Of a DNA stretch of 64,000 bases, positions 8,313 to 43,086 are shown piece by piece. The translations under genes and the position numbers were made by a program. Source of the DNA: Methanosarcina sp. MTP4 (GTDB taxonomy: Archaea; Halobacteriota; Methanosarcinia; Methanosarcinales; Methanosarcinaceae); NCBI RefSeq assembly GCF_000970045.1, contig NZ_CP009505.1, positions 2,046,001-2,110,000 on the forward strand. The letters run 5' to 3'. Below the pieces are notes generated by a model. That model was not told the origin of the DNA, did no database searches, and was given only the letters and a program-made list of their open reading frames with translations. The first letter of the stretch is position 1. The number at the start of each line of letters is the position of its first letter.

Positions 8313-8767
8313 ATATTCAGGACCTGACTCCGGATCCGGTATTTCAAAAGTGAACCCTGATAGATTGCTCGAAAAACCTTCTTAATATGGAGCACTTATC
8401 GAATAACATTCTTTTTTTGAAAAATGTGCATATTTTCCGGAGAAAATTGCAATTTTAGATCACATTTTCCATTTTCAGGGCATACTCTTGAATCCTCAGA
8501 CATATCTATGTTAATGGATAAATTTAAATAGTATTGTACCATTTCGATGATAAATCATCAGTTGATTTTACATCAATATAAATACAAACTATCAGTTTAT
8601 TGACCATCTGTATACTAACTATTGCGATTTCATCTGCTGAAATCTCAGCTATACCCGGAAAGGGAACCAGGTATGTGGTTGCTGAAGCCTTTTTGCAGGA
8701 TTGCGAATCTGCAAAGTCATCAGTCTCTTACGGGCTTATTGCAGCCTTATAGATCCCTGGAGGAAAC
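8313..8767. promoter_or_regulatory. Long leader/promoter region of the MarR gene
   Basis: 455 bp without a gene. A TATA-like TAAATTTAAATAG lies near 8518-8531. AT-rich imperfect dyads follow (ATCATCAGTTGAT near 8557; CTATCAGTTTATTGACC near 8588). MarR dimers bind such dyads, so autoregulation is plausible. The last 130 bp before the GGAGG are not recognisably coding. Confidence 0.4.
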
Positions 8768-19145: not shown

Positions 19146-20087
19146 ATGAAGAAACGGGGTATTCTTGTGGCTGCGTTACTCATTGCGGCAATGTTATTTG
19201 CTTCCGGTTGTGCTGAAGAACCTTCGGAAGAAGGTGTTGAGGAAGGAGTTGAGGAGGAAGTCCCTGAAGAAGGGGAAGAAGAAGAAGTGGTAGAAGAAGA
19301 AGTGGTAGAAGAAGAGGAAGTAGTAGAAGAGGAAGTAGTAGAAGAGGAAGTAGTAGAAGAGGAAGTAGTAGAAGAGGAAGTAGTAGAAGAGGAAGTAGTA
19401 GAAGAGGAAGTAGTAGAAGAGGAAGTCCCTGAAGAAGCCGTGGGAGTGGAAGGGGAATACAGCCCTGTCATAAACCCCGAGGACTTCGTCGAAGAAATTG
19501 ATAACCCCTATTTTCCGCTGGTCCCGGGCACAACTTTCTTCTATGAAGGGGAAAGCGATGAAGGTGATCCTTTAAGAACCGAGATTTACGTCACTGATGA
19601 AACCAGGGATGTGATGGGAGTAACCACCATCGTTGTCAGGGAATCGGAATACGAGGACGATGAGCTGGAAGAAGAGACCTCTGACTGGTTCGCCCAGGAT
19701 AAAGATGGGAATGTCTGGTACTTCGGTGAGGAGTCCAAAGAATACGATGAAGGTGAAGTCGTAAGCACCGCCGGTTCCTGGGAAGCCGGAGTAGACGGGG
19801 CCCAGCCAGGGATAATAATGCCGGGAGACCCACAGGTGGGAGATATTTACTACCAGGAGTTCTACCAGGGTGAAGCCGAAGACCAGGCTGAAGTTGTCTT
19901 TTTAAATGAATCGGTCACTGTTGCCTACGGCTCTTTCGAAGACTGCCTGAAGACAAGGGAATGGAACCCCCTTGAACCTGGCCAGGAAGAGAACAAGTAC
20001 TATGCCTCAGGCGTCGGTCTGCTTCTTGAAGAGGAAGTTGAAGGTGGAGATGAAAGACTGGAACTTGTAGAAATTACCACTGAGTAA
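19146..20087 (+). CDS. Secreted lipoprotein with Val-Glu repeat linker
   Basis: 313 aa from ATG 19146, chosen because GGGGGAAGG precedes it and a signal peptide follows ('RGILVAALLIAAMLF', lipobox-like 'ASGC'). Residues about 24-100 are a low-complexity linker of V-V-E-E-E units encoded by perfect 15-bp repeats. Residues about 105-313 are a globular all-beta-looking domain ('NPYFPLVPGTTFFYEGES', 'VGDIYYQEFYQGEAEDQAE', 'YASGVGLLLEEEVEGGDERL') with no family I can name. A close paralogue is encoded on the opposite strand at 21067-21912. The acidic stalk probably lifts the domain from the membrane. Confidence 0.8.
   Translation: MKKRGILVAALLIAAMLFASGCAEEPSEEGVEEGVEEEVPEEGEEEEVVEEEVVEEEEVVEEEVVEEEVVEEEVVEEEVVEEEVVEEEVVEEEVPEEAVGVEGEYSPVINPEDFVEEIDNPYFPLVPGTTFFYEGESDEGDPLRTEIYVTDETRDVMGVTTIVVRESEYEDDELEEETSDWFAQDKDGNVWYFGEESKEYDEGEVVSTAGSWEAGVDGAQPGIIMPGDPQVGDIYYQEFYQGEAEDQAEVVFLNESVTVAYGSFEDCLKTREWNPLEPGQEENKYYASGVGLLLEEEVEGGDERLELVEITTE
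19320..19424 (+). repeat. Seven perfect 15-bp repeats coding VVEEE
   Basis: Unit GTAGTAGAAGAGGAA occurs seven times without a mismatch, after diverged units from about 19284. It is in frame in the lipoprotein linker. Perfect identity suggests recent slippage, so copy number may vary between strains. Confidence 0.95.
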
Positions 20088-20264: not shown

Positions 20265-20798
20265 TCACTTTTTACTGTCCCCAAAATTCCACATTTCGAT
20301 GAAGTTTTCAAGAAGCCTATCGGGAAAACAGTCTTTGTAGGATATAAGCAGCCTGGCAGTAAGGTCCGGGTCTACAATTTTGAGATTACATCTTTGCCCT
20401 GTTCTGTCCTTTTCAATGATACCGGACTTTACCATCTTATTGAGGTGCCATGAAACAGTTGAGGGGGAGAGCCCGACTGCGGTAGACAGTTCCTTATTGT
20501 TCGTGTCGGGGCTCTGGAGCAGGTTTATCAGGATATGCCTGCAGCCTTTCCTCCTTAAAAAATAGATCATTTCCCTCTCACGCTTTTCGGGAATCCTTTT
20601 ATTTACGAAATATCGGACGTATTCCTCATCTTTAAAATGCGAAATCAGGTTATTCTTTTCGAGATAGTGAAGGTGGTACTGCAAGCTGCCCACTACCAGA
20701 TCCAGCCGCCTTTCGAGCTCCCTTAGATGAATTCCCGGGGAATCTCTTATCAGTTCGTAAAGCTTTTTTCTTGGTTCAGGTTCAAATTCCATCTTCAC
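20265..20798 (-). CDS. Regulator with two winged-helix domains
   Basis: 177 aa. The first winged helix covers about 8-65 ('PGIHLRELERRLDLVVGSLQ', then 'YHLHYLEKNNLISHFKDEEY'). The second covers about 85-145 ('NNKELSTAVGLSPSTVSWHL', 'MVKSGIIEKDRTG', an ArsR-like wing). There is no ligand domain. Tandem-wHTH proteins of this type are common in Methanosarcina. It lies between the two secreted paralogues, both possible targets. It ends in a region converging with the lipoprotein gene. Confidence 0.82.
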   Translation of the reverse strand: MKMEFEPEPRKKLYELIRDSPGIHLRELERRLDLVVGSLQYHLHYLEKNNLISHFKDEEYVRYFVNKRIPEKREREMIYFLRRKGCRHILINLLQSPDTNNKELSTAVGLSPSTVSWHLNKMVKSGIIEKDRTGQRCNLKIVDPDLTARLLISYKDCFPDRLLENFIEMWNFGDSKK

Positions 20799-21066: not shown

Positions 21067-21912
21067 TTATTCAGTAGTAATTTCCACGAGTTCCAGTCTC
21101 TCATCTCCTCCTTCCACTTCTTCTTCAAGAAGCAGACCGATGCCTGAGGCATAGTACTTGTTTTCCTCTTCGCCGGGTTCGAGCGTGGTAAATTCCCTTG
21201 TCTTCAAGCAGTTTTCAAAGGAACCATAGGCAACCGTGATCGTTTCACTCAATGAGAGCACTTCGGCCTGGTCTTCAGCCTCGCCCGGTGAAAATTCCTG
21301 GTAGTAAATGTCCCCGACTTTGGGGTTTCCCAACATTATGATTCCGGGCTTTGCGCCGTTTACTCCGGCTTCCCAGGAACCTTCGGTACTGACAGGCTCT
21401 CCGTCCTCATATTCGATGGAGTTTTCTCCGAAATACCAGACGTTTCCGGCTTCGTCCTGGGCGTACCAGTCAAAGGTTTCCTCAACCAGCTCCCCGTCTT
21501 CGTATTCAGTATCCTGGACAACGGTGGTGGTAACTCCCATTACCTCCTTGGTTTCGTTGGTAACAAAAACCTCATTCAGGATGGTCGTGCCTTCCTCCTC
21601 GCTTTCTCCTTCATAAACGAAAGTTGTACCCGGGACCAGCGGGAAGTAAGGATTGTCAACTCCTTCGACGAAGCTCTCAGGATTTATTTCAGGATCATAT
21701 TCTTCGGTTACGTTATCGGATCCTGTATCTATTGGCTAGGAATCCTATCCTCCGTCAGTTACATTTTCAGATCCTGTTTCCGTTACGTTTTCAAATCCTG
21801 TTTCTGTTACATTTTCAAATCCTGTTTCCGATCCCGGAGCAAGCGCAACCACCGACCCGATAAGGATAAGTATTACACAAGATGCCATACTTTTTGTAAG
21901 TGTTTTTTTCAA
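21067..21912 (-). CDS. Paralogue of the secreted lipoprotein, with two in-frame UAG codons
   Basis: The frame is intact for 282 codons from a TTG start (21912, preceded by GGAGG with seven-base spacing) except for TAG at codons 56 (21747-21745) and 59 (21738-21736). It encodes a signal peptide ('MASCVILILIGSVVALA'), a linker of 8-aa units E-T-G-x-E-N-V-T, the two UAGs, one more unit, then the globular domain shared with the gene at 19146 ('DNPYFPLVPGTTFVYEGES', 'VGDIYYQEFSPGEAEDQAE', identical C-terminus). In Methanosarcina UAG can be read as pyrrolysine, so a full 281-aa product is possible. Otherwise this is a pseudogene making a 55-aa secreted stub. Everything downstream of the UAGs lacks frameshifts and matches the paralogue closely, which favours continued or very recently lost function. 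Canonical annotation would start at 21540 or call a pseudogene. Confidence 0.7.
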
Positions 21913-22527
21913 CCTTCAACCTCCAGAATTTTATTCCACTAATTTTTCCTATCTATGGTGTAGAAAAGTAGGGATTTTGGAGCCTCTGGTGCTTTGTCCC
22001 TCCTTAAAACTCAGTTTCGCATTTCATCTAAAATTATCAGGCTAAAATCAGAAATTTCCCCAATTATCTTTCTGATTATTCTTTCTGATTATTATGCTGT
22101 TGATGTATTGGATCCCCATGAGGTCTCGCAGCTTATAAGGCTCGATTTAATACCTCATCCTGATTTCCGTGAAAGTTCAGTCCCACTTTTCCCCTGTCAT
22201 AATAGGGGGAATGAGTTTTAATAACGGTTCTGGTACATTACTCGAATATTATATTTTTTTAAATATTCTGCTGCCCTGTGATGTCTGATCCGGCTAATGA
22301 TAATTTTCAACTTTTAACTTCCAAATCTTATTTATTATTTTTTGGCGGTTTTGGGGCTCTTGCGTGAACCTGGCCAGAACGACATGAATTCTTCTTCGAA
22401 CAGGTCGTGAAGTGTTTTCTCCTTCCGATCCAAAAACAGAGTCGCATGACTGCAAATCAAATCGTAGCTTAAACAAAAGTTATATTGAAACAATGCTTTT
22501 CATTAGCTCGTCAATCCAAAGAGGTCT
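21913..22527. promoter_or_regulatory. Intergenic region between divergent secreted-protein genes
   Basis: 615 bp carrying divergent promoters for the UAG-containing gene (minus) and the META gene (plus). AT-rich with runs such as TATATTTTTTTAAATATT near 22248-22265. A 75-codon open frame (21994-22221) shows no start signal or homology and is not called. Confidence 0.4.
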
Positions 22528-23508: not shown

Positions 23509-24360
23509 TTAAACCAATCCCTTCGGCTGCTTCTCCCCCGGCACAACCGGCAGCTCCATAGTATTAATCAAAACCGGCCTTTCGATATCCTTTGCCCTCT
23601 CAATCACAAGCTCCTTTCCTTTCTGAGTGAGAGCGAAAAGCGGAATCGCAACTGCCACCTGGACAAGCGGCTTTGCAAGCTCCCTGATATGTTTGGAAGC
23701 GCAGCTTATTACGATATCCGAGTTTTCCAGAAGCTCCCTGGCTTCTTCCCGGCTGACCCCTGTTACATGGACTGCAATCACGATCAGGTCAAGCCCGAGT
23801 TCGGCTTCTATTTCCCTGCAGTTTTTGGCGGTTTTTGCGTCTGCTATAGTTACTGCGATCCTTTTGTACCCCATTTCAGCGGCTTTCCTTACCCCGCCTG
23901 CAGGGTCGATGGCTGCACCTGAGGGGTCGAGCACAGTCCCGCCGTTTTCCCGTATTCCTTTGATGGTTTTGGCAATGGGTTCGGTTTCGATCAGGCCGGA
24001 CATCCTGCCTCCGATCCCCTGGACAAGGGGAGGGTTACCGGAGATCACGGTCCCTGCGCCGTCGCAGGCGGTTACGGTTGTTTCAAGGAAGCCTCGACGA
24101 AGGCCGCTCATCATTACTTCGGAGGCTCCGAAAGCCACATAGGTGTCAAGTTCGAGGAGCTGGCGTTTGTCGGTGAACAGTCCAAAGTCACTGATCCTGA
24201 ATTCGATGTTTTTCCTGACTTCTTCGGCAGTAATCTTTCGGATTCCCCTCAGCTTGTCAAAGAGGGGGCACCATTCTACTTCCGGAGGCCCAACTTCTAC
24301 GACCTTTCCGTCTTTTACGACTACCCTGGCTTTCCCCAATAATTCCATTATATGAGGCAT
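23509..24360 (-). CDS. Methanogenesis marker protein 8 (DUF2099), copy 1
   Basis: 283 aa from ATG 24360; the GTG nine bases upstream is less likely because the paralogue starts at the same 'MPHIMELLGK'. The sequence 'TVTACDGAGTVISGNPPLVQ', 'GIGGRMSGLIETEP' and 'VIAVHVTGVSREEARELL' matches the DUF2099 family, which is conserved across methanogens and counted as methanogenesis marker 8. Cys in 'TACDGAG' and 'SCASKHI' are conserved between the two copies. The function is unknown; a role in methyl-coenzyme M reductase or its cofactor maturation is speculation. The second copy at 25741 is about 70% identical by eye. Confidence 0.8.
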   Translation of the reverse strand: MPHIMELLGKARVVVKDGKVVEVGPPEVEWCPLFDKLRGIRKITAEEVRKNIEFRISDFGLFTDKRQLLELDTYVAFGASEVMMSGLRRGFLETTVTACDGAGTVISGNPPLVQGIGGRMSGLIETEPIAKTIKGIRENGGTVLDPSGAAIDPAGGVRKAAEMGYKRIAVTIADAKTAKNCREIEAELGLDLIVIAVHVTGVSREEARELLENSDIVISCASKHIRELAKPLVQVAVAIPLFALTQKGKELVIERAKDIERPVLINTMELPVVPGEKQPKGLV

Positions 24361-24589
24361 AATAGACACACCTGTAGGTACTGAATAAAGTTGTATTTGT
24401 TCAAACTATATATATACATGACTATATATTGATATTTTTATCTAATATGTAGATCATTGCAATACATGTATATATATAGTATGAAGCCCATATATATAAC
24501 AAGCAAAGAGTATAAGGTTTTTAGTGCTTTCTGTTTTTTGATCGACTGCAGACTACTGAAAAATGAATATATTATTCAAGGAGTGTTTT
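24361..24589. promoter_or_regulatory. AT-rich divergent promoter region
   Basis: It contains several TATATATA runs (about 24407-24420, 24469-24480, 24490-24500), which can serve the marker-8 gene on the minus strand and the small protein on the plus strand. Which box is used cannot be decided from sequence. Confidence 0.45.
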
Positions 24590-25740: not shown

Positions 25741-26589
25741 TTAAATCAGGTCCCTGGGCTGCTTGTGCTCCGGCAGCACCGGAAGAGCCATCGTATTGAT
25801 CAGGAGCGGGGTTTTGATATCTTTTGCTCTTTCTATCACAAGCTCCTTCCCCTTCTGGGTAAGGGCAAAAAGCGGAACGGCAGTCCCTACCTGCGCGAGG
25901 GGCTTTACGAGGTCCCTGACGGGTTTTGAGGCGCAGCTGGTTGCGATGTCCGAGTTTTCAACAAGAGCCTGGGCTTCTTCCCTGTCAAGTCCGGTTACGT
26001 GTACGGCGATAACCACAAGGTCAAGCCCGAGTTCGGCTTCGAGTTCCCTGCATTTTTTAGCGGTATCGGCAAAGGCAACGGTTACTGCAATCTTCTTGTA
26101 GCCAAGCTCAGCTGCCTTTTTCACTCCTGCAACAGGGTCCATTACGGCAGTCGAGGGGTCGAGCACGATTCCGCCGCGTTCTTGGATACCGTTTATGATA
26201 CCGTCGATTGGCTCGGTCTCGACAAGGCCGGACATCCTGCCTCCCATGCCCTGGACAAGGGTGGGGTTGTTGGAAATCACGGTCCCTGCGCCGTCGCAGG
26301 CGGTCACGGTTGTGTCAAGCAAGCCTCTGCTAAGCCCGGTCATCATGACTTCGGAGGCTCCGAACCCTACAAAGTCCTCAAGCTCCAGCTTGCGCTTGTC
26401 GGTGAACATCCCGAAGTCCTTTATCCTGAACTCCATGTTCTTCTTTGCTTCCTCGCCGGTGATCTTCTGGATCCCGCGAATCTTGGCAAAAAGGGGGCAC
26501 CAATCGACTTCCGGCTCTCCGACTTCCACGACTTTCCCGTCTTTTACGACGACTCTTGTTTTTCCCAGTAACTCCATTATGTGAGGCAT
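25741..26589 (-). CDS. Methanogenesis marker protein 8 (DUF2099), copy 2
   Basis: 282 aa, with AGGTGGA before the ATG. It is collinear with the protein at 23509 from 'MPHIMELLGKTRVVVKDGKV' to the C-terminal 'KQPRDLI', with conserved 'TACDGAG' and 'SCASKPV'. Duplicated marker-8 genes separated by small genes suggest specialisation, for example for different growth conditions. The second copy has its own promoter region (26590-26891). Confidence 0.8.
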   Translation of the reverse strand: MPHIMELLGKTRVVVKDGKVVEVGEPEVDWCPLFAKIRGIQKITGEEAKKNMEFRIKDFGMFTDKRKLELEDFVGFGASEVMMTGLSRGLLDTTVTACDGAGTVISNNPTLVQGMGGRMSGLVETEPIDGIINGIQERGGIVLDPSTAVMDPVAGVKKAAELGYKKIAVTVAFADTAKKCRELEAELGLDLVVIAVHVTGLDREEAQALVENSDIATSCASKPVRDLVKPLAQVGTAVPLFALTQKGKELVIERAKDIKTPLLINTMALPVLPEHKQPRDLI

Positions 26590-41979: not shown

Positions 41980-43086
41980 ATGCCTGCCCCCGATCCGAAA
42001 AAAAGCGATCCTAAAAAGCGGATTACTTTCCATGTGGACATGGACAGCTTTTTTGCTTCTGTGGAGGTCAGGGAGAGCCCCGAGCTGAAAGGACTGCCCG
42101 TTGTCGTGGGGTCTGACCCGAAAGGAGGAGCAGGGAGAGGGGTTGTAAGCACCTGTTCCTACGAGGCGCGGGAGTACGGGATACATTCGGCAATGCCGAT
42201 TTCAAAGGCGTATAAGCTCTGTCCCGAAGCGGTCTTTTTGCCCGTCAACATGAAGCTCTACATGGGAGTCTCGGCGGGGGTAATGGAGATCCTCAGGGGT
42301 TTTGCGGAAAAGTTTCAGCAGGTCAGCGTGGACGAGGCATACCTGGTGCCCGGGCCCGAGGTCAGGGATTTTGAGGAAGCTGCCCTTTATGCCCTTCGGA
42401 TCAAGGACGAAGTCCGGAAACAGGCTGGAATTACCTGTTCCGTGGGGGTAGGCCCCAACAAGCTCCTTGCAAAGATTGCCTCGGGCTTCCAGAAACCGGA
42501 TGGGGTGACCGTGTTCCGTCCCGAAGACGTCAGGGATTTTCTTTTTCCAATGCAGGTCTCGAAAATCCCGGGCATAGGGGAAAAAACCACGGAAGCCCTG
42601 AAAGGGATGGGAATCTCCACGGTGGAAGAGCTTTCAAACTGCGATGTCCAGCTCCTGAAGGAAAAATTCGGGAAAATGGGCCTGCGGATGAAGCAGATGG
42701 CAAACGGACTCGATTTCGGGGAGGTACGGGAAAAAGAGGGCATAAAGTCCATAAGCAGGCACGGGACCTTTGAGGAAGACACCGGCGACCCGGTAAAGGT
42801 TTTCGGCTCCCTGGACGCTCTTGCCGAGGCAGTGCACGGTTCCCTGCTCAGCAATAACTTCCTCTACAGGACCGTGACCCTGACCGTTCGCTTCGAGGAC
42901 TTTTCAACGTATACCCGTTCGAAAACCGTCCCGATCTGGACTTCGGATATCTTCGTGATAAAAAGACTGGTCCGCCAGCTCCTTTCCGAGTTCCTTGGCG
43001 GCAGGAAATTCCGGCTGGTGGGAGTCGGGGTCTCGAAGCTCCGGGAAAGGGACGAGAGGCAAACCCTGATAACGGATTTCCTGTAG
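41980..43086 (+). CDS. dinB: DNA polymerase IV (Y-family)
   Basis: 368 aa. Catalytic carboxylates sit in 'HVDMDSFFASVE' (about 18-29) and 'VSVDEAYL' (about 111-118). 'VSTCSYEAREYGIHSAMPIS' and the helix-hairpin-helix 'KIPGIGEKTTEALKGMGIST' are typical, with the little-finger domain beyond about 240. It performs translesion synthesis. The last residues 'QTLITDFL' do not resemble a strong PCNA-binding PIP box. It ends in TAG, followed by a coincidental long open frame; the next gene has its own start. Confidence 0.93.
   Translation: MPAPDPKKSDPKKRITFHVDMDSFFASVEVRESPELKGLPVVVGSDPKGGAGRGVVSTCSYEAREYGIHSAMPISKAYKLCPEAVFLPVNMKLYMGVSAGVMEILRGFAEKFQQVSVDEAYLVPGPEVRDFEEAALYALRIKDEVRKQAGITCSVGVGPNKLLAKIASGFQKPDGVTVFRPEDVRDFLFPMQVSKIPGIGEKTTEALKGMGISTVEELSNCDVQLLKEKFGKMGLRMKQMANGLDFGEVREKEGIKSISRHGTFEEDTGDPVKVFGSLDALAEAVHGSLLSNNFLYRTVTLTVRFEDFSTYTRSKTVPIWTSDIFVIKRLVRQLLSEFLGGRKFRLVGVGVSKLRERDERQTLITDFL

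Follow-up and report, generated by a model that had tools for sequence, protein, structure and literature searches.

A gene for a predicted secreted protein in Methanosarcina sp. MTP4 contains two in-frame UAG codons which, to judge from comparison of related sequences, the host almost certainly reads as an amino acid, and probably as pyrrolysine. It lies within the 64,000-nucleotide stretch of DNA that was analysed, here called the window (Table 1). A sequence-only reading had drawn attention to this frame of 282 codons, broken by TAG at codons 56 and 59; on re-reading, neither another stop nor a frameshift was seen. We think it very likely that the gene is intact and that both UAGs are decoded as pyrrolysine through tRNA-Pyl(CUA) and PylRS, since the TAGs are present in three species, the sequence downstream is under selection, the host has a full set of pyl genes and there is no canonical restart that could make the domain.

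Table 1. Features of the gene with two UAG codons, its surroundings and a second UAG-containing gene. Positions are those of the window except in the last line.
Feature	Position	Strand	Remarks
Gene with two in-frame TAGs	21067-21912	minus	TTG start, TAA stop, 282 codons including stop
In-frame TAG, codon 56	21745-21747	minus	Read from sequence
In-frame TAG, codon 59	21736-21738	minus	Read from sequence
Shine-Dalgarno motif GGAGG	21920-21924	minus	7 nt 5' of the TTG start; conserved in 3 species
Putative signal peptide or membrane anchor, residues 1-26	21835-21912	minus	Hydrophobic stretch in translation
Stalk, residues 27-72	21697-21834	minus	8-residue repeats, N-x-T sequons, predicted disordered
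26-nt block GGAGGATAGGATTCCTAGCCAATAGA around the TAGs	21728-21753	minus	Identical in 3 species, 1 copy per genome
Beta-rich YmcC-like domain, residues 73-281	21070-21696	minus	Purifying selection
Paralogue A, lipoprotein	19146-20087	plus	Same domain, no TAG
Winged-helix (HTH) regulator between the twin-TAG gene and paralogue A	20265-20798	minus	Selection control
CDF gene with TAG	L068:1561-2544; G000 contig 1, around 311561-312544	minus	

The predicted product has three parts. A putative signal peptide or membrane anchor is followed by a stalk whose repeat, ETGxENVT, is rich in N-x-T glycosylation sequons, after which the frame reads GG-UAG-DS-UAG-PI and continues into a domain of some 210 residues. 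AlphaFold2 on eight relatives predicts residues 1-69 to be disordered and, with confidence, the domain to fold as beta sheet. Its nearest solved folds are those of putative exported lipoproteins with a YmcC-like fold, PDB entries 4fvs and 3fzx (E about 2e-6, TM about 0.49 of the target); no PDB relative was found by sequence, and the identification is by fold only. No Pfam family matches the protein at an E-value of 1 or better and no NCBIfam family comes near its own cut-off; a methyltransferase match is thus lacking from both collections, and the fold is beta-rich. As the sequence-only reading had noticed, the protein matches paralogue A to the last residue, with 73% identity over the C-terminal domain. 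The same domain, which has no Pfam family, is also present in Nocardioides and in gammaproteobacteria (L018, L019 and L021), at about 44-52% identity to the archaeal sequences, a distribution that suggests transfer between domains of life.

Relatives were sought in four genomes of the host genus (g1) and 112 from the family. Two further species, G001 (JAENZL010000022.1) and G003 (DUKH01000156.1), proved to have the gene with both TAGs at the same place, and the agreement of three separate assemblies leads us to reject sequencing error as the source of the TAGs. Neither TAG has changed in any of the three species, nor has any synonymous site flanking them; the block GGAGGATAGGATTCCTAGCCAATAGA is identical throughout, while the copies differ by a 24-nt repeat in the adjacent stalk, in the length and sequence of the remaining stalk, and by many substitutions in the domain. 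A mobile or repeated element at this place can be rejected, as the block occurs once per genome in the three gene-bearing species and was not found in the other 109 family genomes searched. Likewise, the host genome contains the initial 222 nt of the gene only once.

A fourth species, G002, carries two TAG-free lipoprotein homologues at the corresponding place. In a tree of the domain a TAG-free tandem copy from G001 falls into one group with the three TAG genes, beside paralogue A, and the second G002 copy falls outside. The signal and repeats of the TAG genes recur in the G001 tandem copy, which is without the nine-codon segment that bears the TAGs and is a natural control. It also carries two beta domains, and its low-complexity tail includes a run of N (L016:5425-7041). 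The missing segment bears on the suggestion, made from the sequence alone, that an 11-bp palindrome at the TAGs might show how they arose. The palindrome itself, TAGGAATCCTA, is real (5+1+5, with an odd centre) and occurs once in the window against 0.04 occurrences expected; as the origin of the TAGs it is unsupported, given that these lie in a segment absent as a whole from the tandem copy and that the hairpin is weak (41-nt z of -0.43). The branching of the host, G003 and G001 sequences differs between the twin-TAG gene and paralogue A. Interspecies recombination is therefore possible, and may make the three TAG cases less than independent.

Conservation of the TAGs is in itself a weak argument, because the tree is short: by a hand estimate, the chance of keeping all six TAG bases under neutrality is about 6%, which is not very unlikely. 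The case rests instead on the frame downstream. For the three pairs among the host, G001 and G003, the part beyond the TAGs has dN/dS values of 0.13, 0.21 and 0.25; the corresponding ranges are 0.10-0.18 for paralogue A, which is intact, and 0.11-0.26 for the neighbouring HTH gene. The observed substitutions were also redistributed at random 20,000 times, and for none of the three pairs did any trial yield as few amino acid changes without a stop. Downstream changes favour the third codon position (first/second/third, 20/11/39 and 11/6/24), and the repeats upstream of the TAGs are under selection too. At 0.25-0.36, dS after the TAGs is similar to that of neighbouring genes, which indicates that the shared TAGs are old rather than recent damage. 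Sense codons in the orthologues combined with relaxed selection, named in the sequence-only reading as what would speak against it, were looked for; what we see is TAGs kept in three species and a selected frame.

These results bear most directly on the view that the gene is a pseudogene or in early decay, its TAGs being nonsense mutations with nothing translated after codon 55. Nearby TAG-free paralogues could indeed substitute for it, and the G003 copy has a 2-nt insertion within its last 27 codons, representing either late frameshift and decay or an error in a metagenome-assembled genome. Up to that insertion, however, the indels among the copies measure 24 nt and 3 nt, lengths divisible by three, and the TAGs are common to all three copies, so that the divergence most simply postdates them. 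With third-position bias, dN/dS like that of intact genes, and purifying selection downstream about as strong as in intact neighbours, we reject decay and regard it as highly improbable.

A selected downstream frame might also be explained by two products, namely a short secreted peptide that terminates at the first TAG, and a domain made by re-initiation further on. A GGAGG just 5' of the first TAG could serve as an internal ribosome-binding site, and the upstream repeats are selected in their own right. Yet a search for canonical starts (ATG, GTG or TTG) after the TAGs finds the first in-frame one only at codon 125 in the host and G003, and at codon 202 in G001. These starts are not conserved and lie inside the domain, so that re-initiation at any of them would cut into it and could not make it whole; a non-canonical start would be needed. 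With no conserved canonical start for the domain, re-initiation is excluded in practice, and we give it hardly any credence.

Decoding as pyrrolysine agrees well with the genetic equipment of the host. Its 4.21 Mb genome, assigned to the Methanosarcinaceae, has pylT (with a CTA anticodon), pylS, pylB, pylC and pylD together in one cluster; pylT and pylS are present in 4/4 members of the genus, pylBCD having been scored in the host genome itself. Three mtbB genes each contain one TAG. As a terminator TAG is rare, ending 3.6% of 611 sampled ORFs, though it still seems to act as a true stop for ordinary genes. An example is the ORF at 41980-43086 of the window, by eye resembling a Y-family DNA polymerase, which terminates in TAG and is followed by 82 open codons with a non-coding look.

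We propose that the tRNA-Pyl(CUA)/PylRS pair of the host would insert pyrrolysine, rather than another amino acid, at both UAGs. The result would be a secreted or membrane-anchored protein with an N-terminal signal or anchor helix and a disordered, N-x-T-rich stalk carrying Gly-Gly-Pyl-Asp-Ser-Pyl-Pro, the beta-rich YmcC-like domain sitting outside the cell. A flexible stalk could be expected to accept pyrrolysine, and this one presumably either tolerates or uses the two residues. Read-through is likely to be partial, since the losses at two successive UAGs should multiply. In M. acetivorans an introduced UAG was read at 20-30% efficiency (PMC2933860); at that rate per codon, by our arithmetic, roughly 4-9% of ribosomes would pass both, and the amount of protein made may be small.

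In the same work on M. acetivorans, MtmB was still produced after replacement of its PYLIS element, which together with the reading of an introduced UAG implies that PYLIS is not essential (PMC2933860). Near the TAGs we found no Rfam match, whether to PYLIS or to another element. RNA downstream of them has z-scores of -1.2 to -2.7, but the three copies share no one fold, and neither compensatory changes nor covarying pairs were found across them. The sequences accordingly give no clear support for a PYLIS-like structure at these TAGs.

The sequence-only reading had held that a secreted protein, not a methyltransferase, with two pyrrolysines in a flexible linker would be new. The proposal itself is well supported by conservation, selection, the pyl genes and the want of a restart; its uniqueness does not survive a coding scan of sampled stretches covering about 11% of the genome, whose hits were then scanned against Pfam. 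The scan revealed a CDF (cation-efflux) transporter gene with an in-frame TAG at codon 53 (DAVRSFODF), within the CDF domain. This TAG is kept in 4/4 members of the genus, whose copies are 84-92% identical to that of the host, and dN/dS for the gene is 0.20-0.28. In a relative from g13, a different genus of the Methanosarcinaceae, the site is occupied by Ser (L119). Two other g13 genomes, G084 and G097, have a TAG elsewhere in the same family, near the C-terminus (YGOGIYTLIKAEP; L117 and L118) at a site that is Glu in relatives; this second site is probably a separate gain of UAG. Reading of UAG outside methyltransferases is thus not peculiar to the twin-UAG gene and appears to be more widespread among these archaea, with the twin-UAG gene the most striking case within the sample.

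The first sample contained other TAG-interrupted ORFs; those for which Pfam gave no match were discounted as probable shadow frames, and a MarR-like ORF at position 8600 of the window probably starts after its own TAG. A stricter second scan listed the twin-TAG gene alone and missed the CDF gene, from which it follows that such scans undercount.

Two refinements of the pyrrolysine reading differ on whether the residues serve any purpose. According to one, the genus tolerates UAG as a sense codon and a disordered stalk simply accepts a pyrrolysine of which no use is made. Several observations are in keeping with such drift: members of the CDF family from two genera carry their TAGs at different sites, the site used in the host genus being Ser in the g13 relative; the stalk is predicted to be disordered; and the pyrrolysine in Thg1 of M. 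acetivorans is dispensable (PMC2933860). Against it, the TAGs and flanking synonymous sites are fixed while the stalk varies, a difference that is not significant on so short a tree. We put this refinement at about an even chance.

Alternatively, the pyrrolysines may have a function, possibly as a methylamine-dependent switch: cells short of pyrrolysine would make the anchor and stalk only, and growth on methylamines would yield the full surface protein. Two serial UAGs should square the dependence on pyrrolysyl-tRNA, and both are kept in 3/3 species. A precedent exists in Acetohalobium, where the growth substrate reportedly decides whether UAG means stop or pyrrolysine (PMC8211752), and the TAG-free tandem copy of G001, alike in signal and stalk, would represent an ungated version. 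However, no methylamine gene was found among ten neighbouring proteins scanned around the twin-TAG gene, and simple tolerance fits the data equally well, so that control of this kind appears unlikely, though worth entertaining. Slightly more doubtful is the fuller proposal in which the UAG pair confines display of the outer domain to pyrrolysine-making cells, that is to growth on methylamines, and the electrophilic pyrrolysines of the stalk possibly act as attachment points.

To our knowledge, conserved pyrrolysine is tied almost entirely to methylamine methyltransferases. Like the genes for MtmB, MtbB and MttB, the twin-TAG gene keeps in-frame UAG across species in a pyl-bearing methanogen. 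Those proteins, however, have one pyrrolysine in an enzyme active site, whereas here there are two UAGs in the disordered stalk of a surface protein that has no methyltransferase domain. Archaea with a 'Pyl code' were reportedly described in 2025 as reading all TAG as pyrrolysine. In them UAG is sense in many proteins and TAG is depleted as a stop; TAG stops are rare in the present host as well but, unlike in those archaea, appear still to end ordinary genes, such as the one at 41980-43086. A parallel for pyrrolysine outside methylamine metabolism, indicated in our case by sequence, is Thg1 of M. acetivorans, a protein other than a methyltransferase in which pyrrolysine has been physically observed (PMC2933860). 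The Thg1 UAG, though, is confined to one species and dispensable, while those of the twin-TAG gene are kept in three. Passages from a further paper on M. acetivorans mention transposases and a TetR regulator annotated with in-frame UAG (PMC3639795); as described there, these too have UAG outside methyltransferases but are mobile or limited to few species, in contrast to a conserved pair in a secreted protein. The passages on in-frame UAG genes that we consulted in the literature describe no such pair. What is new is therefore the conserved UAG pair in a secreted stalk protein, pyrrolysine outside methyltransferases being already known or annotated.

If correctly interpreted, the gene would be one of few conserved uses of pyrrolysine outside methylamine enzymes and, if translated, would yield a secreted protein, apparently without catalytic activity, in which a pair of pyrrolysines spaced by three codons has been retained between species. 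Taken together with the CDF transporter, it suggests that UAG functions as a sense codon in this genus beyond the metabolism of methylamines. The gene could also serve as a natural reporter with two UAGs, one species having a TAG-free sister copy, for the choice between stop and pyrrolysine. Elsewhere in the window, two DUF2099 genes (methanogenesis marker 8) lie close together, at 23509-24369 and 25741-26589.
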